DNA of 36,282 nt. Source: Bacteroidales bacterium. Lineage in GTDB: Bacteria > Bacteroidota > Bacteroidia > Bacteroidales > ML635J-15. The translations under genes and the position numbers were made by a program. Location: positions 1 to 36,282 of the forward strand of contig JAGOLH010000030.1 of the NCBI GenBank assembly GCA_017994175.1, read 5' to 3'. The notes under the pieces were generated by a model, which was given only the letters and a program-made list of their open reading frames with translations, did no database searches and had not been told where the DNA came from. Shown piece by piece: positions 8,853-29,320 of this stretch. Every line of letters begins with the position of its first letter. Within the stretch, counting starts at the first letter, position 1.

Positions 8853-11800
8853 ATGAACAGGTACTTAATATCGGTTTTATTGCTGTTAAGCGTAGCGGCA
8901 GGATACTCACAAACCTGGCGCGAATATCATGCTATGTACACCGATTATTACAATAGGCAGATATATGATTCTGCAATTGTTTTTCTTAATAAAGCCATTT
9001 CGGATTGCGAAGAGCGGGATGCTACTTCCGATACTTCCTATGTAGTCATGATATCGGAATTGGGAAACCTGTACGGGGTAATGAAAATGCATAATGAGGG
9101 CATCGAAACAATTAATAAGGCAAATAAGCTTATTATCAAAAACCAGGGAAAGAACAGTTTATATGCCGAAAACTGCCTGGTACTCGCAGGAATATATTCA
9201 TCAATGGGTGATTATCCTGCTGCTGAGAAGCAATTAAAAGAATCGCTCGATGTTAGGGAAAAAACATTTGGCAACGAAAGCCCTGAATATTTAAGATGTT
9301 ACTTAGAACTGCCACGCCTGTATGTGAAAATGCGAAAATTGGGCGATGCTGATGTCATGTACGAAGAGGGTCGGAAAAACGCGGAGAAAATATATGGTAA
9401 AAAAAGCAATCAATACCTGAATTTGTGTTCTGAAGAAGGAGTGTATCTAAAGAAAAGGAGGAAATATACCGAATCGGAAATTCTATTGAAAGAATGTGTT
9501 GATTTGCGTGAAGAAATTGCCGGGCCGAGCGACACAGCTTATGCAAGTGATTGCGAAAACCTGGCAATGCTCTACGATAAAATGGGGAAATACGCCGATG
9601 CTGAAGTGCTTATGGTGCAATGCCTGAACATAAGAAAACCCGCACTTGGCGACAAACATGGGGCGTATTTGCAGGCAGTAGAAAATATGGGTGCTGTGTA
9701 TAAGAATTCAGGGCAGTATGCCAGGGCAGAACCCTATTATATCGAATTAAAAGAAACCGCAGAATTTATGTATGGAAACGCTGATACGGTGTATGCGGAC
9801 AGATGTAACGCTCTGGGCTTGTTGTATGCTGCGATGGGAAATTACAAAAATGCAGAACCTCTTTATTTCGAGGCCAAAGCTATTCGCGAAGCCGTCAATG
9901 GGAACACCCATCCGGAATACGCAAAAATCATCAATAATATTGCAACACTTTATATTAAACTGTTTGATTATGAAGCTGCTAAACCACTACTGACAGAAAG
10001 CCTGGAAATAAAGAAAAAAACTGAGGGCCCCGAAACGGCATCATATGCAAATAGCTGCAATAACCTTGCTTACGTATATATGAATACGGGAGAATTCAAT
10101 TCGGCAGAAAAGCTCTTCAAGGAAGCCCTTAAAATAAATGAATCGCGATTTGGCAAAGCTCACATTAATTATCTTAAAGCCGGCAACAATCTTGGCAACT
10201 TGTACATTGAAATGAAAAGCTATAATGCTGCTGAAAAAATTCTTCTCGAGATTAAAGAAATAGCATCACAAAAACTGGGTGTAACACATCCCTATTACGC
10301 TGAAATATGTAACAATCTTGCTAAATTATACAGGATAAAAGGTGATGTTACGCAGGCAAAATCGGCGTATCTTGAAACCATTAGCACAGCCAACACCATT
10401 ATTAGCAATAATTTCGGACTGCTTACCGAACAGGAAAAAGAAATGTATTTTGCAGGTTTCGATAAGTTCTATGATGGTTTTAATGCTTTTGCACTCCAAA
10501 CCATAAGCAACGATTCCGCAATTGCAGAATATGTGTACAACAACACCATCAAAACAAAGGGAATGTTGCTGAAATCATCCACTGCTCTCAGATTCAGCAT
10601 ACTGAGTTCTAACGATTCAGTATTGCTTGCAAAATACGATAACTGGATGCTGCTGAAAAGACAAATCTCCGACCTGTATGCACAGCCTGTGTATGAGAGG
10701 GGCAATGAGTTAACAAGGCTCGAGGGGGAGGCCAATACCCTCGAAAAACAACTTATCAAAGAATCAGAGCTTTTCGCTGATTCCGAAAATGAAAAAAAAC
10801 TAACATGGACCGACATAAAATCAAACCTAAAACCCAACGAGGCAGCAATTGAATTTATCGATTTCCAAGATGGCGACTCGGTGATTTATTGTGCACTCAT
10901 AGTGCGCCAAAACAGCAAATATCCCGAAATGATACGCCTGTTTGAAGAAAAACAACTTCAGCAGATTTTTGGCAAATTCCTGATGAATAATGTTAAATAC
11001 ATCAACTCACTTTATGGTCAACAAAATCAGGCAAATACCAAACTTTATAACCTGATATGGAAACCCATTGAAGAAAAACTCGAAGGCTGTACCGATGTGT
11101 ATATTTCACCGTCGGGATTGTTGCATAAAATCAGTTTCCCTGCCCTTTGTCGTGAGCAAAATGTATTTCTCTGCGATGTTTATGATATTAATATGTCGGG
11201 AAGTACTACTGGCATTATCCGACCACGCAGCCATCCCATCACCGATATCCATGCTTTTGTGGTTGGAGGGGTTGAATACAATACAGAAGTTACCGACAAT
11301 AATGTATGGGCATATCTACCGGGTACAAAAGAAGAAGCCGACAGTATTACAGGAATTATGCAGCAGGGGCAAACGGAATTTAACTATCAGTCAAACCGTA
11401 AAGCTAGTGAATTGGTTTTCAAACAGGATGCGACCGGTTATAACGTACTTCATATATCAACCCACGGATTTTTCTATCCCGATCCTGAGGAATTGTTGCA
11501 CTCGCGTATTCAAAAACAGGAAAAACCCGATGAAGAAACGCGCGCATCAGCGAATGGCGACTGGGGGTTTGGTATGTATGCATTTGCAATGAACCGCAAT
11601 CCATTAATGCGGTCAGGCCTGGTTTTGGCCGGAGCGAACAATGTTTGGAACAAAGGGGCGTTTCCTCAACCCCTCGTGGAAGATGGGGTTTTAACTGCCA
11701 GCGAAGTAGCTCAACTCAATCTCATCAATGTCGATCTTGTGGTATTGTCGGCTTGCGAAACCGGATTGGGCGACATCAGGGGAAGCGAAGGAGTGTATGG

Positions 11801-12011
11801 TTTGCAGCGGGCATTTCGACTCGCAGGAGTCGATTATATCATTATGAGCCTCTGGCGTGTTGCCGATAAAGAAACAAAAGAATTTATGACATGTTTCTAC
11901 CAAAACCTGTTGGAATGCAAGGACGTGGAAATTGCCTTTACAAAGGCCAGAAGCACAATGAGGCAGAAATACGACCCGTATTACTGGGCAGCTTTTGTAT
12001 TGGTAGAATAA
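8853..12011 (+). CDS. Exported TPR-repeat protein with C-terminal CHAT (caspase-clan) protease domain
   Basis: A 1052-residue protein with signal peptide MNRYLISVLLLLSVAAGYSQ, so it is probably periplasmic or beyond. Residues ~25-520 are about 42-residue tetratricopeptide repeats of the kinesin-light-chain/TPR_12 type (for example YAEICNNLAKLYRIKGD). A helical linker follows at ~540-700, then a CHAT domain at ~725-1052. The dyad is visible: HISTHGFF with His871, and VLSACETGLG with Cys968, followed by the family's RAFRLAGVDYIIMSLW segment. CHAT domains belong to peptidase clan CD; some are proven proteases, as in the TPR-CHAT partner of type III-E CRISPR effectors. No CRISPR genes are seen here and the protein is exported, so a different role is likely. 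The neighbouring acidic lipoprotein is the obvious candidate partner. Substrate unknown. Confidence 0.9.
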   Translation: MNRYLISVLLLLSVAAGYSQTWREYHAMYTDYYNRQIYDSAIVFLNKAISDCEERDATSDTSYVVMISELGNLYGVMKMHNEGIETINKANKLIIKNQGKNSLYAENCLVLAGIYSSMGDYPAAEKQLKESLDVREKTFGNESPEYLRCYLELPRLYVKMRKLGDADVMYEEGRKNAEKIYGKKSNQYLNLCSEEGVYLKKRRKYTESEILLKECVDLREEIAGPSDTAYASDCENLAMLYDKMGKYADAEVLMVQCLNIRKPALGDKHGAYLQAVENMGAVYKNSGQYARAEPYYIELKETAEFMYGNADTVYADRCNALGLLYAAMGNYKNAEPLYFEAKAIREAVNGNTHPEYAKIINNIATLYIKLFDYEAAKPLLTESLEIKKKTEGPETASYANSCNNLAYVYMNTGEFNSAEKLFKEALKINESRFGKAHINYLKAGNNLGNLYIEMKSYNAAEKILLEIKEIASQKLGVTHPYYAEICNNLAKLYRIKGDVTQAKSAYLETISTANTIISNNFGLLTEQEKEMYFAGFDKFYDGFNAFALQTISNDSAIAEYVYNNTIKTKGMLLKSSTALRFSILSSNDSVLLAKYDNWMLLKRQISDLYAQPVYERGNELTRLEGEANTLEKQLIKESELFADSENEKKLTWTDIKSNLKPNEAAIEFIDFQDGDSVIYCALIVRQNSKYPEMIRLFEEKQLQQIFGKFLMNNVKYINSLYGQQNQANTKLYNLIWKPIEEKLEGCTDVYISPSGLLHKISFPALCREQNVFLCDVYDINMSGSTTGIIRPRSHPITDIHAFVVGGVEYNTEVTDNNVWAYLPGTKEEADSITGIMQQGQTEFNYQSNRKASELVFKQDATGYNVLHISTHGFFYPDPEELLHSRIQKQEKPDEETRASANGDWGFGMYAFAMNRNPLMRSGLVLAGANNVWNKGAFPQPLVEDGVLTASEVAQLNLINVDLVVLSACETGLGDIRGSEGVYGLQRAFRLAGVDYIIMSLWRVADKETKEFMTCFYQNLLECKDVEIAFTKARSTMRQKYDPYYWAAFVLVE

Positions 12012-14917: not shown

Positions 14918-16210
14918 TTACTGAGTTTTGCCGTTGATAAGTGCTTTTACCGGCTCCAGACCAAGATAGGTTCCGTTTTCAATGGCTTTGAGCACAGCAC
15001 CTCCACCGGTGAAAATATAGTATTTCGGACTGTCGAGTGCCATAATATACAACCCGGGTAAAAGTCGTTTCAGTTCCTGCATTGTGTCGCCACCGCCGTA
15101 GAGCTTAACCGCATTGATATTGGTATCAATTAGGCTGTCGAGAGCAATTGTACCATCGTTGAAGTGTGGGGTGTAGCCCATAACTGCATTTACAAAAATT
15201 GTATTTGCTTTATTGAAAACCTCTTTCACGTGAGCGTCTTCAAACGATTCGGGAGCAATGTCGAGTACGTAATTCAACTTTGCTCCGCTTTTTAATTTCC
15301 GAATGTCGTGAACCCTGTTTTTCCCTTCAATTTTCCCTTCAAACACGTCTGATTCAACAATATAAGGCAATTCAACAATGCGATCGGCGTATTTTTCCGA
15401 TTTTGTAATAAACTCTTTTGCCAACCGGATGTCGTCGTCTTCGATGCCGGTGATCGAAATTCCGTATTTTGCTGCCAGATAAGCATTATAAATTACACCA
15501 CCAAGAACCAGATAATCGGCTTTCTGAATCAGTGCATTCAGTGAATCGATTTTTGTGTCGAATTTGCTTCCGGCAACAACCGCTACCATAGGTTTCTGTG
15601 CATCGTAAATCCGGTCGAGGCTTTCAATCTCTTTTTGCAGTAGAAATCCAGCGTACGAAGGCAGGTATTTGCTTATTCCTACGGTGGAAACATGGGCCTG
15701 CCACGAACCAAACGCATCGTTCACATAAATATCGGCCAGACCAGCCATTTGATTGGCCAGACGCTCTGCCGATTCATCCTTTGCTTCTTCTCCAGTAAAC
15801 CACCGGGTGTTGGGAAGATATATCATATCGATCTCGTGGTTGCGTAATTGCCGTATCAGGTGATTTACGCTGGTTTCGATTCCTGCATAACCGGTATCGC
15901 CATGAACATAGAATTCAGGCACTTTTATTTTGACATGCAATTTGTTCTGAAGATATTCAACAATAGGCTGAACAGAACTCTCTTCATCAATTTTTATGGC
16001 TCCGGTTTTTTTATCTTTTGGCCTGCCTACGTGGGTCATTAGAATTATTTTACCGCCTTTAGCCAAAATATGGAACAATGTCCCGAATGTGGCATCAATA
16101 CGGTAAGGATCGTGAATCTGACCTTTTTTAACAACGTTATGGTCAACCCTGACAAGTACTACTTTGTCTTTCAAATCAGCATCCTGCAATAAAGGGAGTA
16201 GTGTTTTCAT
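14918..16210 (-). CDS. Divergent phosphoglycerate kinase homologue
   Basis: A 430-residue protein with the full PGK fold order but altered signatures. R21-VDHNVV replaces RVDFNVP (the Pro is Val). THVGRP at 59-64, NTRWF with Arg136, and YVNDAFG at 162-168 are recognisable. The usual AHRAHAST stretch reads SWQAHVST, so one substrate-binding Arg appears lost. K216 of AGSKFDTKI, GGGDT at 372-376 and TGGGAVL at 401-407 are kept. The WNGPMGVFE ATP-site motif reads VNAVMGYTP at 340-348. Canonical PGK moves phosphate between 1,3-bisphosphoglycerate and ADP in glycolysis. Either this is a divergent active PGK or a paralogue with another substrate; I cannot decide. At 430 residues it is slightly longer than the usual ~390-415. 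It is divergent from the radical SAM gene with 86 nt between starts. Confidence 0.85.
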   Translation of the reverse strand: MKTLLPLLQDADLKDKVVLVRVDHNVVKKGQIHDPYRIDATFGTLFHILAKGGKIILMTHVGRPKDKKTGAIKIDEESSVQPIVEYLQNKLHVKIKVPEFYVHGDTGYAGIETSVNHLIRQLRNHEIDMIYLPNTRWFTGEEAKDESAERLANQMAGLADIYVNDAFGSWQAHVSTVGISKYLPSYAGFLLQKEIESLDRIYDAQKPMVAVVAGSKFDTKIDSLNALIQKADYLVLGGVIYNAYLAAKYGISITGIEDDDIRLAKEFITKSEKYADRIVELPYIVESDVFEGKIEGKNRVHDIRKLKSGAKLNYVLDIAPESFEDAHVKEVFNKANTIFVNAVMGYTPHFNDGTIALDSLIDTNINAVKLYGGGDTMQELKRLLPGLYIMALDSPKYYIFTGGGAVLKAIENGTYLGLEPVKALINGKTQ

Positions 16211-16296: not shown

Positions 16297-17319
16297 ATGA
16301 GTATCAGGCTGCCATATATCTCGGTCGAAGTGAACGAAAACTGCAATCAATCGTGTTGTTTTTGCTATAATAATAAGGTATCGCAATCGGAATATCACCA
16401 AAGCAACTATGCCCAGTTACGCAGGTTGCTGGTGACCCTTTATAAACAAGCGAGACCAGAGCGTGTAGTATTTACCGGAGGAGAACCCCTGCTTGAACCA
16501 AGAATTGCAGAAATTGTACTTTTCTGTAAAATGCGAAAATCAGCAGTAAGCATCATTACTAATGGAACCGCTGCAACGAAAAATGTATATAAAGACCTGA
16601 TATTATTGCAGACCGATTTGTTTCAGTTGCCGGTACACAGCTTTAATGCTGAAGCTCACGATAAGATGACAGGACTGAAAGGCAGTTGGGAGAAAAGTGT
16701 TAACTCAATCTTACAAATCAAATCACTAGGGGGTAGGGTTGTTCCTGTGATTGTGATTACACGACACAATGTGAAAGAAATCGATAAAACTGTACAATTC
16801 ATAATTTCTTTGGGAATCAAGGAGCTGATGCTGAACCGGTTCAATTTTAGCGAAAACGCCGGTAAAGAAGCCGCTGGTATGTCAGCTTCAAAAAGTGAAC
16901 TTAATCAAGCCTATACGGCAGTAAATACATTGGCGCGTGATAATGCAATGAAAGTTTCATCAAACGTGAATACGCCATATTGTGTTTTACGACCTTCCGA
17001 ATATCCATTCATCCGGTTTAGCGGTTGCGCTTCTGATATTTTGCGGAATCCAATCACCACAGATATTCATGGGAACCTGCGTAAATGCAACCATAGCAAT
17101 GTTGTTGCCGGCAATATATTTCGTACATCTATCGAAGAAATCCTGCGATCCGACTACTTGAAAAGCTGGAATGAAATAATTCCGGATTTTTGTAAAAAAT
17201 GCAGCGACTGGCCCCAATGCCGTGGAGGCTGTCGTGCTGCTGCAGAGCGGACAGGTGGCAATATCTCGCTACCAGACCCTATGGTACTACTATTATCAGA
17301 AAATCAGCAGCTTGTTTAA
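16297..17319 (+). CDS. Radical SAM enzyme with SPASM domain
   Basis: A 340-residue protein. The [4Fe-4S] radical-SAM motif CX3CX2C is at C16, C20 and C23 (CNQSCCFC), followed by FTGGEPLLEP, the SAM-binding GGE motif, near residue 65. The C-terminal SPASM domain shows C244-X14-G-X4-C264 and then C299-X2-C302-X5-C308-X3-C312 (CKKCSDWPQCRGGC), which would hold auxiliary Fe-S clusters. SPASM enzymes modify peptides or proteins (PqqE-like, sactionine and thioether formation, sulfatase maturation) or other substrates, so the reaction here is open. I chose the ATG at 16297 because the -7 box at 16281 and the domain start fit it; a longer frame from 16201 overlaps the PGK-like gene start. No small precursor peptide gene is visible nearby. 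The next gene, 103 nt downstream, encodes a WD40-caspase protein. Confidence 0.88.
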   Translation: MSIRLPYISVEVNENCNQSCCFCYNNKVSQSEYHQSNYAQLRRLLVTLYKQARPERVVFTGGEPLLEPRIAEIVLFCKMRKSAVSIITNGTAATKNVYKDLILLQTDLFQLPVHSFNAEAHDKMTGLKGSWEKSVNSILQIKSLGGRVVPVIVITRHNVKEIDKTVQFIISLGIKELMLNRFNFSENAGKEAAGMSASKSELNQAYTAVNTLARDNAMKVSSNVNTPYCVLRPSEYPFIRFSGCASDILRNPITTDIHGNLRKCNHSNVVAGNIFRTSIEEILRSDYLKSWNEIIPDFCKKCSDWPQCRGGCRAAAERTGGNISLPDPMVLLLSENQQLV

Positions 17320-17365: not shown

Positions 17366-17376
17366 GAAAGATTGAT

Positions 17377-17384
17377 TAAATTTG
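17377..17384 (+). promoter_or_regulatory. -7 box for the WD40-caspase gene
   Basis: TAAATTTG matches TAnnTTTG. The predicted start near 17391 gives a leader of about 32 nt to the ATG at 17423 and places an alternative upstream start (17372) outside the transcript. There is no TTG at -33; the palindrome at 17348-17365 occupies that position. Confidence 0.45.
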
Positions 17385-17422
17385 TTTATTTAAATCACTG
17401 GTTTAGTCTCATATTTCACAAA

Positions 17423-20400
17423 ATGAAGAAAATCAATGGGTTATTTGCTTTGATGTTTTGTTGCCTGATGGCGCATTCTCAGGAAGCAAATCTGATACTA
17501 CCCGAAGGCCATTTGGAAAAAATTATCCAGATTGGGTACAGTCCCGATGGAAATTATCTCGTAAGTGCCTCCGACGACAACACCATCAAAGTATGGGATG
17601 TGAGAACAGGCCGCTTACTTCATAACCTTTCTGACCATACTGACGATATTTTGAAATTTGTTTTTATTGAAAGTGGGACCAAAATCAGATCGTTATCACG
17701 CGATAAAACGGTTAGAACATGGAACATTAAAACAGGAGAGCTTGAATTTGTAAGTAGTGGCAGCAAAGTTGTAAATACACGTGCTTTTATAAATGAAAAA
17801 GGAACTCTTGTTGCCACTACCGATATGAACGACGGCATTGCCCGCATTTGGGATGTTACTGGAAAGGAATGGGTGCTTAAATATGAGTTACCTCTTAATG
17901 CAGAAAGTCCATTGTATTTAGTCTGTTTCAGCGATAATGACAAATATGTTTGCACAAACTATGAGGAAGGAAAAGCTGCCGTATGGGATCTGGAATCCGG
18001 GGAAAAGAGGTTTGTAACAAAGAATAAGGGAATCATTTTTACAGCATCTTTTAGCAACGACAACAGAAAATTAATTACAATTATCTCCGACACATTATCA
18101 GTCTGGAATATTGAGACCGGTAAATTGAGTTTTGAAGTAAAGAAGAACAACGGGTGTATTTCTTGTGCAAAATATAGCAACAACGATTCAATTATTATTA
18201 CCGGTTCTACAAGAGGCGAACTCAGGATTTTTGAAGGGGCGACAGGGAAATTAATACGAAAAATACCAGCCAATATCGACGAAATTTCCGATATAGCGAT
18301 TTCGTCCGATAGTCGATTTGTTTATTCTGTCGATTACGAAGGGTTAGTTACGAAATCAGACCTTTCGACCGGAAAGTTGATTAGCGAGTTTTCAACCTTG
18401 TATGGTAGCAATAGCACAATGAGATTTCGGCTTCGCCTTTCGTTAAGCCCCGATGAAAAAACCTTGGCAGTTACCAATTTTGCAGGAACAGTTGAAATAT
18501 GGAACATTGCCGACAACAGGATTCTTCATGAACTGAAGGGGCAGACATCTAAGATAAAAAAACCTGTTTTTAGTCCTTTGGGCGATATTGTTGCAGTGGT
18601 GAGCGCTGATTTCACGGTTAAAGTTTGGAATTATAAAAATGCAAGCTTATTACATTCTCTAAAGGGCCATCAAACCCCCATCGAAACCCTGACTTTTACG
18701 CCAGATGGGTCAAAGATTATAACTACTTCCGAAGATGGCTTTCTAAAAGTGTGGGACGTTTCAACAGGTCGGTTGTTATTTAGTATCGAGGATTTGTATT
18801 CCAGAATTGATGATGTGCTAATAAGCCCTAACGGAAAATATCTTTTTATTCTCCCCCGATGGAAAAATCCAAGAGTTTACAATATTCTTTCTGGCGAATT
18901 GCTGTTTGAACTCATGATTGAATCTTCAAAATTTAGGGGTGCATACTATTCGGATAGTGGAAGCTATTTGTATGTTTTTTATCGGGAAAACGACCAGATT
19001 AAATATCTTGAAATAAATGTAACAAAAAGCATTGCTATTGATGACATCCCAGTGGGAGAAATCGAAAATCATGAATTTGACGGTCATAAAACGGTCTTAT
19101 TGTTGCCCGATAAAAGCGGGTTACTTTACCTGGATGAATTTGAGTTAAATTATTGCAGTTTAACCGATAAAAACAAAAATGTGGTTTTTAGCGCACATCC
19201 GATGGAGATAACCAAAGATCCTTTTAACAATAACGGTAAATTAATTGTGTTCGACACTTACGATGGAACCGATGAATTACATGCCCAGGTTTGTGATATC
19301 GAAACTGGAAAAACAGTTTATGATTTATCCGGATATACATTTAATCCCAATGGCGGGATCGAACAGCCATTCAGCAGCGATGCCCGTTGGATACTCACCA
19401 TGGATGACTCAGGTTTTGTAAGGGTATGGAACGCCGCTGACGGAAAACTAAAAACCGAAATAAAATGCGGTGATGTAAATAATATACTGGCATTTGCCCG
19501 ATTTATGCCTGACAATAATACAGTTATGGCCGGTAGTTTTAAAGTTAACGAAATGCAATATATCTACCACTTTAATCCTGTTGGAATTTATGACATCGAA
19601 ACGGGAAATCTCATCGGAACAATACCTTTTGAGCAAGGATTTCCTGCCGCATTTTGCGATAGTGAAAACATCGCTGCCTATTGTAATAACTCTCAGTTGG
19701 TGTTATACGACACCAAAACATGCAAACAAAACGCCTCGTATATTGCTCTCGATAATAGCGAGTATATAGTGATTACCCCTGAAAAATATTATAAATGCTC
19801 AAAAAATGCTGCAGGAAAAGTACTTTGGCGCGCTGGTGGTAAGTTTTACCGCTTCGATCAGTTCGATTTGCAGTATAACCGGCCTGACATTGTGCTCGAA
19901 AAAGTAGGTAATCCCGACACAGTATTAATAAAACTTTACAGGGAAGCCTATAAGAAACGCCTGAGAAAAAGCGGATTCAGTGAAAATGTATTTCAACCGG
20001 GTTGGAGCTGTCCGGAGGTTGAAATTTTAAATGCCAGCACATTCCCATGGATAACTGATAAATCAAAAATTACATTGAATATCGTTGCGGAAGATAAAAA
20101 TGCCTCACTCAACAGGTTAAATATCAGTGTTAATGAGGTGCCGATAAATGGTGTAACCGGCATCGGGATAAAAACCGATAACTTGCCGTCGGTCGAGAAT
20201 TGGGTCGAAGTGGACCTTTGTGAGGGGTACAACATTATTGAAGTCTCCTGTACCAATGAATTTGGGGTTGAGTCATTTAAAGAAAATCTCGAAATTAATT
20301 ATGTGCCGGCGGTTCCTCATCAACCAATCCTGCACCTGATTGCTGTATCGGTATCGGAATATGCGGATGGGAGTTTTAATCTTACCTATCCGGTAAAAGA

Positions 20401-21175
20401 CGGAAGGGACATGGTTGCTTTATTGGGGAATGGAACATCCGGAACCTCAGCAATTGCCGTGGTCGACACATTGTTCAACGCAATGGCAACCCGAAGCAAT
20501 TTGCTTGATATGAAAACTGATCTTGGCAAAACAAATATCGACGATATTGTGATTTTATATCTATCAGGGCATGGGTTACTTAGCGATAATCTTGATTTTT
20601 ATTATGCAACTTACAATGTCGATTTTGCACACCCCGAATTACAGGGCATTTCGTACGACGAACTGGAATGGCTACTCGACGGTATTCCGGCACGTAAAAA
20701 ATTAATACTAATCGATGCCTGCCATAGCGGAGAACTCGACAGAGATTATGTTGATCAGACCAACGACAGTGTTATACTTGCCGATGGCACACGCAGCGGA
20801 CTGAAAACTTATTCCTATAAAACCGCCATGATGCCATCGCAGCAGGGAAATATACCGTTTAACTCAGCATTTGAACTCATGCAGGAAACTTTCAACGACC
20901 TGAGTAAAGGTTCCGGCGCTGTTGTAATTTCTGCTGCGTCTGGCACGGGTTTTGCAATCGAGTCGCCCGTGTGGAATAACGGAGTTTTTACGTATGCAGT
21001 TATTTCAGGATTAAAAGAGTTGAGGGCTGATTTGAACAATGATAATATGATTACTGTTTCTGAATTGAAAGTTTTTGTAAGCAACGAAGTGGAATCGCTA
21101 ACCAGAGGAAGGCAAAAACCATCGGGAAGGGGCGAAAGTTTGCTTTTCGACTGGAAATTGGTGCAGAAAGAATGA
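17423..21175 (+). CDS. Exported WD40-repeat protein with C-terminal caspase (peptidase C14-like) domain
   Basis: A 1250-residue protein counted from the ATG at 17423, which gives signal peptide MKKINGLFALMFCCLMAHSQ; the in-frame start at 17372 would add 17 residues before it. Residues ~25-710 hold many WD40 blades, with at least a dozen W-D/W-N endings such as IKVWDVRTG, VRTWNIKTG, LKVWDVSTG and VRVWNAADG, enough for two propellers. After an Ig-like linker (~850-965) comes a clan CD caspase domain (~968-1250). It has the catalytic pair in YLSGHGLL (His1050) and LILIDACHSGE (Cys1100), both intact. WD40-caspase fusions occur in many bacteria, mostly uncharacterised. The propellers probably sense or bind a partner and control proteolysis in the envelope or outside the cell; that is inference. 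It follows the radical SAM/SPASM gene by 103 nt. Confidence 0.9.
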   Translation: MKKINGLFALMFCCLMAHSQEANLILPEGHLEKIIQIGYSPDGNYLVSASDDNTIKVWDVRTGRLLHNLSDHTDDILKFVFIESGTKIRSLSRDKTVRTWNIKTGELEFVSSGSKVVNTRAFINEKGTLVATTDMNDGIARIWDVTGKEWVLKYELPLNAESPLYLVCFSDNDKYVCTNYEEGKAAVWDLESGEKRFVTKNKGIIFTASFSNDNRKLITIISDTLSVWNIETGKLSFEVKKNNGCISCAKYSNNDSIIITGSTRGELRIFEGATGKLIRKIPANIDEISDIAISSDSRFVYSVDYEGLVTKSDLSTGKLISEFSTLYGSNSTMRFRLRLSLSPDEKTLAVTNFAGTVEIWNIADNRILHELKGQTSKIKKPVFSPLGDIVAVVSADFTVKVWNYKNASLLHSLKGHQTPIETLTFTPDGSKIITTSEDGFLKVWDVSTGRLLFSIEDLYSRIDDVLISPNGKYLFILPRWKNPRVYNILSGELLFELMIESSKFRGAYYSDSGSYLYVFYRENDQIKYLEINVTKSIAIDDIPVGEIENHEFDGHKTVLLLPDKSGLLYLDEFELNYCSLTDKNKNVVFSAHPMEITKDPFNNNGKLIVFDTYDGTDELHAQVCDIETGKTVYDLSGYTFNPNGGIEQPFSSDARWILTMDDSGFVRVWNAADGKLKTEIKCGDVNNILAFARFMPDNNTVMAGSFKVNEMQYIYHFNPVGIYDIETGNLIGTIPFEQGFPAAFCDSENIAAYCNNSQLVLYDTKTCKQNASYIALDNSEYIVITPEKYYKCSKNAAGKVLWRAGGKFYRFDQFDLQYNRPDIVLEKVGNPDTVLIKLYREAYKKRLRKSGFSENVFQPGWSCPEVEILNASTFPWITDKSKITLNIVAEDKNASLNRLNISVNEVPINGVTGIGIKTDNLPSVENWVEVDLCEGYNIIEVSCTNEFGVESFKENLEINYVPAVPHQPILHLIAVSVSEYADGSFNLTYPVKDGRDMVALLGNGTSGTSAIAVVDTLFNAMATRSNLLDMKTDLGKTNIDDIVILYLSGHGLLSDNLDFYYATYNVDFAHPELQGISYDELEWLLDGIPARKKLILIDACHSGELDRDYVDQTNDSVILADGTRSGLKTYSYKTAMMPSQQGNIPFNSAFELMQETFNDLSKGSGAVVISAASGTGFAIESPVWNNGVFTYAVISGLKELRADLNNDNMITVSELKVFVSNEVESLTRGRQKPSGRGESLLFDWKLVQKE

Positions 21176-27864: not shown

Positions 27865-28015
27865 TTTGATCAAAAACAAAAACACCCAACAGTGAAAATT
27901 CTTTATGAATTATTAAAATGATCTTTTCGTTAAAATTTCAATGTAGTTTTTGTTACCTTGCCATCTGATAAAGAATAAAACTTATTGCTATCTTGGTATG
28001 CTTAAAACTAATCTT

Positions 28016-29320
28016 ATGAGAATTAAAGCCTTGTTTATCGGTGGTGCTATGTTCCTGTTACTTGGTTTTACAGGACTGGCCTCGGGCGTTGCACGTGAAC
28101 TACCGCAATACCTTCTTGCGATCCCGGAAGTGCAGGATATCGACACCCTTGAAACTTCCGATTTCTTTAGCGAAAAATACCTGGTATTGTTCAAGCAGGA
28201 AATTGATCATGGCAATCCGGATGCCGGCTACTTTACTCAACGCGTTTTTATAAGTCATTATGGTTTTAATAGTCCTGTTGTTTATACCACGGAAGGATAT
28301 ACCGGATCGTATGCAGAAATGCCGGGCTATGTCAACGAACTTTCTGCAATGTTCGAGGCAAATCAGATTGTTGTGGAGCATCGGTATTTCGATCAGTCGG
28401 TGCCGGAACCTTTCGATTGGAAATACCTTACAACCGCAAATGCTGCCGCTGATCACCACGCTGTTTTCGAAGCACTAAAGCCTGTGTATAAAGAAAAATG
28501 GATAAGCACAGGAATTAGTAAGGGTGGTGAAACAGCCATGTTGTATAATATGTACTACCCTGATGATGTTGACATTTGTGTTGCATATGTTGGACCTGTA
28601 GCTTTTGCGGTTGAAGATGGTCGCCACGAACCGTTTATTGCATCGGTCAGCACGGGGAAAGACCGTAAACGGATACTTAGTTTTCAGAAAGAAGTGCTCA
28701 AGCGCAGGAGTGAAATGATTCCCCTGCTCGAAGCCTTTTCGAAAAAAAACAAACTAACCTACAGAGTAAGCATCGATGAAGTTCTCGATTATTGTGTACT
28801 GGAATTTTCGTTTGCATTTTGGCAATGGGGCGCATCTCCGGCAACAATACCCGGCACAAAAGCATCCACTCAGGAGCTTTTTCGGTATCTGGTAATGATT
28901 GCCTCCCCCGATTATTTTGCCATTGAAGGAATTGAACCAACTCTACCCTTCTTCTATCAGGCAGCACGTGAACTGGGGTATTATGGTTATGATGTGAAAC
29001 CATTTAAAAAATACCTGAGCATCAGTAGTGCTGAAGGATATCTTTATACAATATTTCTGCCTCCTGATTTGAAGGTTGATTTTATTCCCGAAACTTCGCA
29101 AAAACTTGCCGATTACATGCAACACAAGGCTCACCATACAATACTTATTTATGGTGAATTTGACCCTTGGTCAGCAGCAGCAGTCGACGTGTCGCAAAAC
29201 CCAAATGTTTTGAAAGTGATTTCCCCTGCGGGTTCGCACATGGCCAGAATCAAAAACCTACCAAAAATTCAACATGATAAAGTGATTAATACAATCACTC
29301 AATGGCTTAACGAGAAGTAG
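28016..29320 (+). CDS. Secreted S37 (PS-10) family serine peptidase, tripeptidyl-aminopeptidase-like
   Basis: 434 residues from the ATG at 28016 (MRIKALF); in-frame starts at 27998 and 27950 also precede the hydrophobic signal segment FLLLGFTGLASG. It has an alpha/beta-hydrolase core. The nucleophile motif is TGISKGGE (Ser168), followed by YYPDDVDICVAYVGPV, a stretch typical of peptidase family S37 (Streptomyces tripeptidyl aminopeptidase relatives). The acid lies in YGEFDPWS (Asp383) and the His in GSHMARI (His408), so the triad is complete. VVEHRYFDQSVPEPFDWKYL near residue 120 is also family-like. Proteins of this group remove di- or tripeptides, often proline-linked, from peptide N-termini outside the cytoplasm. 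The substrate here is unknown, though proline-rich peptide breakdown would suit the proline dehydrogenase in the same window. Confidence 0.85.
   Translation: MRIKALFIGGAMFLLLGFTGLASGVARELPQYLLAIPEVQDIDTLETSDFFSEKYLVLFKQEIDHGNPDAGYFTQRVFISHYGFNSPVVYTTEGYTGSYAEMPGYVNELSAMFEANQIVVEHRYFDQSVPEPFDWKYLTTANAAADHHAVFEALKPVYKEKWISTGISKGGETAMLYNMYYPDDVDICVAYVGPVAFAVEDGRHEPFIASVSTGKDRKRILSFQKEVLKRRSEMIPLLEAFSKKNKLTYRVSIDEVLDYCVLEFSFAFWQWGASPATIPGTKASTQELFRYLVMIASPDYFAIEGIEPTLPFFYQAARELGYYGYDVKPFKKYLSISSAEGYLYTIFLPPDLKVDFIPETSQKLADYMQHKAHHTILIYGEFDPWSAAAVDVSQNPNVLKVISPAGSHMARIKNLPKIQHDKVINTITQWLNEK

Follow-up and report, generated by a model that had tools for sequence, protein, structure and literature searches.

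Sequence evidence for a third, deeply separate branch of the phosphoglycerate kinase family in uncultured Bacteroidales

The phosphoglycerate kinase (PGK) homologue encoded in the window, by which we mean the whole stretch of 36,282 nt analysed here, belongs, on the evidence of alignments and trees, to a third branch of its family that is deeply separated from bacterial and archaeal PGKs. The protein may well be an active acyl-phosphate phosphotransferase with a changed partner, acting at or near the 1,3-bisphosphoglycerate (1,3BPG) step and used alongside an ordinary PGK. It would transfer a phosphoryl group between 1,3BPG and 3-phosphoglycerate (3PG), or at a neighbouring step, with the usual hinge closing and in-line transfer kept; the changed partner could be an altered phosphorylated carboxylate, an altered phosphoryl donor or acceptor, or both. 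PGK is one of the best-conserved enzymes in central metabolism and has a single textbook reaction. Full-text searches of part of the literature turned up neither a divergent branch of bacterial PGKs, nor a bacterial PGK with two domains, nor any PGK dependent on pyrophosphate. A strictly conserved third branch that is altered at residues for both ligands and is found beside an ordinary PGK offers a natural test of partner change within the fold. Should the partner be something other than ADP or other than 3PG, uncultured bacteria of gut and sediment would have an additional reaction in their central carbon metabolism. Annotation by PF00162 only can hide a second function of this kind.

The PF00162 profile matches the window protein over essentially its full length (residues 8-411, 291 bits, E = 1.6e-86, cut-off 27), which places it in the PGK family. 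The AF2 model (pLDDT 87.9, pTM 0.85) has the two-domain PGK fold, its best match in the PDB being 1vpe (Z 41.1, rmsd 2.9, 390 residues). The protein passes no specific NCBIfam model; the bifunctional PGK/triosephosphate isomerase model (NF010569) gives 220.6 bits where 883 are required, and is matched at profile positions 6-388 of 645 only. The motif coordinates in Table 1 were computed from the residue numbers, and the inserted LPGLYI is modelled with low confidence (pLDDT 53-61).

Table 1. The PGK-family gene of the window, its motifs and its divergent neighbour. Counts refer to the 86 aligned members of the divergent family.
Feature	Residues	Coordinates (nt)	Strand	Basis and remarks
PGK-family paralogue, 430 aa, ATG start		14918..16210	(-)	ORF; PF00162 291 bits; AF2 model
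RVDHNVV	R21-V27	16130..16150	(-)	R21, D23, N25 kept; Phe replaced by H24 (86/86); the next Pro of PGKs absent
PNTRW	P133-W137	15800..15814	(-)	ENLRF/ENTRF in PGKs; R136 corresponds to 3-phosphate Arg122 and is kept; E to P and F to W, 86/86 each
SWQAH	S169-H173	15692..15706	(-)	TAHRAH in PGKs; one residue shorter; His to Trp; 3-phosphate Arg170 to Gln171
AGSKFDTK	A213-K220	15551..15574	(-)	K216 and K220 kept, both 86/86
GGVIYN	G237-N242	15485..15502	(-)	Adenine-pocket turn; V239 (86/86) and N242 (86/86) unlike bacterial PGKs, like archaeal PGKs
NAVMGY	N341-Y346	15173..15190	(-)	NGPMGVFE in PGKs; Asn of the alpha-phosphate retained; Gly-Pro altered; the ribose-binding Glu deleted together with the residue before it
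GGGDT	G372-T376	15083..15097	(-)	Phosphate/Mg loop kept, 86/86
LPGLYI	L384-I389	15044..15061	(-)	Insertion peculiar to the family, following the GGGD helix; every position conserved in 84-86 of 86; the other aligned PGKs lack it
Radical SAM protein, divergent neighbour		16297..17319	(+)	PF04055 73 bits; start probably the ATG at 16297, the ORF as listed beginning with GTG at 16201

The separateness of the family is seen in two trees. In a tree of 82 rows, the 27 rows of the divergent family form one clade (SH-aLRT 100, stem 1.73). In a more careful tree of 52 rows that includes archaea, three separate groups appear, bacterial (89/66), archaeal (100/100) and divergent (100/100, stem 1.5), with the divergent family joining neither of the others. 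Note that the tree is unrooted, and it would look the same whether the family is ancient or changed fast early on and was strictly conserved thereafter. The median identity is 71.8% among the 86 members and 31% between them and 106 other PGKs. Of 1770 genome pairs (60 genomes), 1717 show stronger conservation of the divergent family than of the ordinary PGK (medians 72.5 vs 55.6%); thinning at 95% identity leaves 1128 pairs, and 1091 of these show it too. Part of this high conservation may come from a more recent spread of the gene, slow evolution and transfer not being separated in these comparisons.

The contacts of 3PG and of the nucleotide were defined from section 6 of a review (PMC7729029), and the Bacillus numbering was checked on the printed 1php sequence, where residue 323 is Glu and not Asp as the review gives it. 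By this definition five of the six reviewed 3PG contacts are kept in all 86 members, the 3PG side retaining D23, N25, H60, R63 and R136 without exception. Equally invariant (86/86) are R37 and K216 of the transition state and, on the phosphate/Mg side, K220, N341, G372-G374, D375 and T376; 7/7 of the reviewed phosphate/Mg contacts are kept, one Ser as Thr. The residues that mark a PGK for phosphate, Mg and the transition state (Arg38, Lys215, Lys219, Asn336 and GGGD, in human PGK numbers) are thus all found, each in 86/86. Of the three 3-phosphate arginines (65, 122 and 170; PMC7729029) two are kept, as R63 and R136, and Arg170 is replaced by Gln171 in every member; the His next to the lost Arg is also gone in every member, with Trp there in 85, where His-Arg is found in 105/105 bacterial and 21/21 archaeal PGKs.

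The altered motifs RVDHNVV (21-27), SWQAH (169-173) and NAVMG (341-345) stand as the preliminary description gave them, and they are not the drift of one genome, since H24, Q171 and A342-V343 each occur in 86/86 and W170 in 85/86. The bacterial PGKs (n = 105) have F, Y or M at the site of H24, and R, H and G-P at the other altered sites in 105 cases each. Thinning to 65 members below 95% identity leaves the residue pattern unchanged. Compared with the 105 bacterial and 21 archaeal PGKs, the changes specific to the divergent family are the replacement of His-Arg by Trp-Gln with a contraction of one residue, the lost Glu, H24, P133, W137 and F400. In summary form, the family has in common with bacterial PGK (EC 2.7.2.3; 1php, 1vpe) the whole-length fold, the catalytic Arg and Lys, the phosphate and Mg site and most 3PG contacts, but the identity is about 31-34%, the AHR clamp is missing and so is the ribose Glu, GPMG is altered and LPGLYI is extra. 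The retained residues point to phosphoryl transfer and the altered ones sit at both ligands, and a PGK-like transfer with a changed partner would, on such evidence, be the most economical reading.

On the adenosine side, 5/5 of the reviewed contacts are replaced. Specifically, the adenine contacts Tyr223, Ala292 and Val321 (Bacillus numbers) are changed in 86/86 members, Leu237 is Gly in 85 and Ala in 1, and the ribose Glu after GPxGxF, present in 105/105 bacterial and 21/21 archaeal PGKs, is deleted in 86/86. Archaeal PGKs use ATP, and a control set of them was drawn from one archaeal phylum (28 genomes with a match; 20 loci returned, all 20 used, plus 2cun from Pyrococcus horikoshii). These proteins mostly have V/L/I, N, S/N and I where the divergent family has V, N, G and V/I, the positions of V239 and N242 in GGVIYN reading V/L/I in 21/21 and N in 20/21. 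The substitutions V/L/I for Gly, Asn for Phe/Tyr and Ile for Gly are thus similar in the two groups. The adenine-pocket changes, at first seen as diagnostic, are thus largely common to archaeal PGKs, which weighs against a changed partner and means that they are no proof of a non-ATP donor. Archaeal PGKs differ from the divergent family in that they keep His-Arg and the Glu (21/21) and lack the second Lys (21/21) and, in most, the Asp, both of which the divergent family keeps; the two are separate clades with a median identity of 26.6%. We also note that the PGK of an Altiarchaeales-titled genome (L103, also L176) carries NAVMG and GGGST and has features in common with the divergent family, with His-Arg and the Glu kept.

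These comparisons bear on the possibility of an ordinary ATP-dependent PGK isozyme in which the substitutions are simply tolerated, a second PGK serving, for example, the gluconeogenic direction. Such an isozyme would be expected to keep what is kept here, five of six 3PG contacts and all reviewed phosphate/Mg contacts, and most of the same adenine-pocket changes are tolerated by archaeal PGKs. We nevertheless consider it fairly unlikely, because Arg170 and the ribose Glu are lost in 86/86 members and universal in the 126 bacterial and archaeal PGKs compared, and because it leaves unexplained a stem of 1.5 substitutions per site that is followed by strict conservation. In addition, the review (PMC7729029) has Arg65 and Arg170 making the salt bridges of the closed form of human PGK.

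An adenosine-independent PGK, linked to pyrophosphate (PPi) or polyphosphate, would account for 7/7 phosphate/Mg contacts being kept while 5/5 adenosine contacts are replaced and the ribose Glu is deleted throughout. A possible analogy, and no closer likeness, is the PPi-dependent acetate kinase of Entamoeba histolytica, an acyl-phosphate kinase with a changed phosphoryl partner that belongs to a different enzyme family; it is reported to use acetyl phosphate and Pi and to have a constricted adenosine pocket (PMC5517563). The genome of the window does encode a membrane pyrophosphatase (G000:C38), but this enzyme is near universal in the order (52/60 genomes; 10/11 positive and 42/49 negative for the divergent family), and its presence does not follow that of the family. 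The changes L to G and F/Y to N would moreover open the pocket and not fill it, and the only PFK match of the genome reads GGDG, which we take to be the ATP-type motif. Since four of the five adenosine contacts vary similarly in archaeal PGKs, leaving only the lost Glu as specific, the control lowers the standing of a PPi-linked enzyme, which we now regard as very improbable. It also seems quite improbable that this third branch of the fold has left adenine-nucleotide chemistry and transfers between an acyl phosphate (1,3BPG or an analogue) and a non-ADP partner such as Pi or PPi; if it had, anaerobes carrying it would divide what a single glycolytic step yields in energy, part going to ATP by way of the ordinary and often double PGK and part to a second currency. 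A change of nucleotide preference has a precedent in the guanine-nucleotide PGK of Entamoeba histolytica, which the review describes as structurally canonical (PMC7729029).

The genome of the window (3.17 Mb, 95% complete) holds three PF00162 matches, the window protein and two within one frame of contig C2 (L001 1462-3846, (-) strand), which encodes a 794-aa protein with two complete PGK domains of ordinary type joined head to tail. The N-terminal domain has Gln (THRGQP) where the window protein has R63, and Asp where it has N341; in the C-terminal domain, Asn takes the place of the Asp that precedes AFGTAHRAH. The preliminary description had proposed to look for a second, canonical pgk, and the genome carries an ordinary one in the form of this two-domain PGK. 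The window gene is neither the only pgk of its genome nor grouped with active PGKs, the combination that would have counted against that description. Among the host genomes of the best 80 loci, 77 have another PGK, the exceptions being G096, G125 and G132. Of the two roles offered for the protein earlier, a divergent but working PGK of this lineage is therefore disfavoured, and a paralogue with a new role gains support from the strict, family-specific conservation and the separate clade.

The three genomes of the 80 that show no other PGK speak for an ordinary isozyme, and together with G047 they also count against a changed partner, as the divergent gene could replace PGK in them, although assembly gaps explain these four cases equally well. 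Replacement was considered for the two genomes without another PGK in the order sample, G047 and G054 (the latter being G096 by its contig coordinates), and set aside, since both are incomplete and G047 also lacks GAPDH. G132 carries two divergent-family members in tandem. The tandem pair among the 80 loci is that of L076 (6561-9281), in a Cloacimonadota-titled MAG for which no other PGK was found.

Classed by open-frame length and match positions, the PGKs of the 80 host genomes comprise about 33 two-domain forms (including one split over contigs and one broken by a stop), 12 of 650 aa and 32 single forms, with none in 3. In the order sample a two-domain PGK occurs in 4/11 positive genomes, one of them cut by a contig end, and in 0/49 negative genomes. 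The two-domain halves that were put in the tree all fall in one clade, so that the association of two-domain PGKs with the divergent family may rest on few events.

This association, and a position directly behind a two-domain PGK in 12/80 loci, would be expected of a non-catalytic partner that binds or regulates the ordinary, often two-domain, PGK, or that senses 3PG or 1,3BPG. We think such a partner decidedly unlikely: K216, K220, R37, N341 and GGGD are strictly kept, unlike in the N-terminal remnant of the 650-aa PGKs, which has lost both GGGD and the second Lys in 5/5. With these residues and five of six reviewed 3PG contacts kept in 86/86, a non-catalytic role appears less likely than a kinase role, with the reservation that conservation of catalytic residues also fits ligand binding without turnover.

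The gene neighbourhood gives a further indication of how a phosphotransferase with a changed partner might be used. Another PGK lies in the fetched flanks of 20/80 loci, and a second divergent-family member in one more (L076). Twelve of these 20 (L027, L033, L038, L039, L043, L044, L049, L050, L055, L057, L064 and L068) have a two-domain PGK as the next gene upstream in the same orientation, the stop-to-stop gap being 25-365 bp where the genes do not slightly overlap; in L059 a single PGK is found instead, at 364 bp, and in L015, L045, L046 and L047 a two-domain PGK, stop-broken in L047, lies 3.7 kb off on the opposite strand. GAPDH adjoins the divergent gene in 2/80 loci (L048 and L031). Related genomes share these arrangements, which are not statistically independent. 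The recurrent position right behind an ordinary PGK gene suggests joint use of both, and the linkage to PGK, and twice to GAPDH, also suits an ordinary isozyme. No conserved operon partner other than PGK was found among the loci, the flanks varying by lineage. A dedicated GAPDH partner was considered and rejected, since the positive genomes mostly have one GAPDH like the others and no extra gap/pgk pair was seen.

For the window itself, the gene had been described as lying beside peptide-modification and protease genes and away from glycolysis genes. The radical SAM neighbour is there, and neither gapdh nor any other gene of glycolysis was recognised in the window, which counts against the favoured explanation, but the peptidase (S37 family, 27950-29320) is 11.7 kb away and does not adjoin the gene. 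Next to the radical SAM gene, window positions 17372-21175 encode a 1267-aa WD40-repeat protein with SGHG and DACHSG in its C-terminal part, which we take to be caspase-like motifs, and positions 8853-12011 encode a TPR protein with a C-terminal CHAT domain, presumably also caspase-like; the two make candidates for caspase-fold proteins in the window.

The divergent family is present in at least 80 genomes, mostly of uncultured Bacteroidales. A scan of named genome contigs gave 156 pattern hits and 134 confirmed relatives, of which the best 80, at 70-78% identity, make up the set of loci; none of their titles appears to name a cultured strain. Sampling one genome per family of Bacteroidales found it in 11/60, all 11 confirmed by sequence, and in a sample of 395 genomes of the phylum none but that of the window was positive at E <= 1e-70. 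Plasmid records gave 61 matches, all below 60% identity. In a Spirochaetota sample 2/149 genomes are positive. A wide spread across phyla was not accepted, because mis-binning of contigs may explain the loci that bear the titles Lentisphaerae, Delongbacteria, Aminicenantes, Altiarchaeales and Cloacimonadota; L066, for example, is 4.1 kb long and 90% identical to the Bacteroidetes copy L013, with an upstream aminotransferase common to both. Among the copies titled outside the main phylum only those of Spirochaetota look secure, since the three in the tree form one clade, all four have common flanking genes and 2/149 genomes are positive.

The 86 aligned members are 81 from the 80 loci (L076 has two), the window protein and four from the order sample, with L002, L003, L120 and L123 left out before counting as repeats of other rows. 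One of the broken halves of L047 was kept, and a 237-codon partial PGK of L031 was left unaligned. The 106 other PGKs exclude five degenerate N-terminal domains of 650-aa PGKs, and become 105 bacterial PGKs when the archaeal-type L103 is moved out and counted with the archaea as L176.

The ordinary PGKs of these genomes show some peculiarities of their own. In rumen-type Bacteroidales (L104-L108) the 650-aa PGK consists of a leftover C-terminal PGK domain fused to the front of a complete PGK. The arrangement suggests decay of a two-domain PGK, and the remnant domain may now be structural or regulatory. In L047 (12977-15370) a two-domain PGK is interrupted by an in-frame stop, which leaves frames of 380 and 417 codons. 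Within a single two-domain PGK the halves are sometimes mutual nearest relatives, a pattern that gene conversion would produce.
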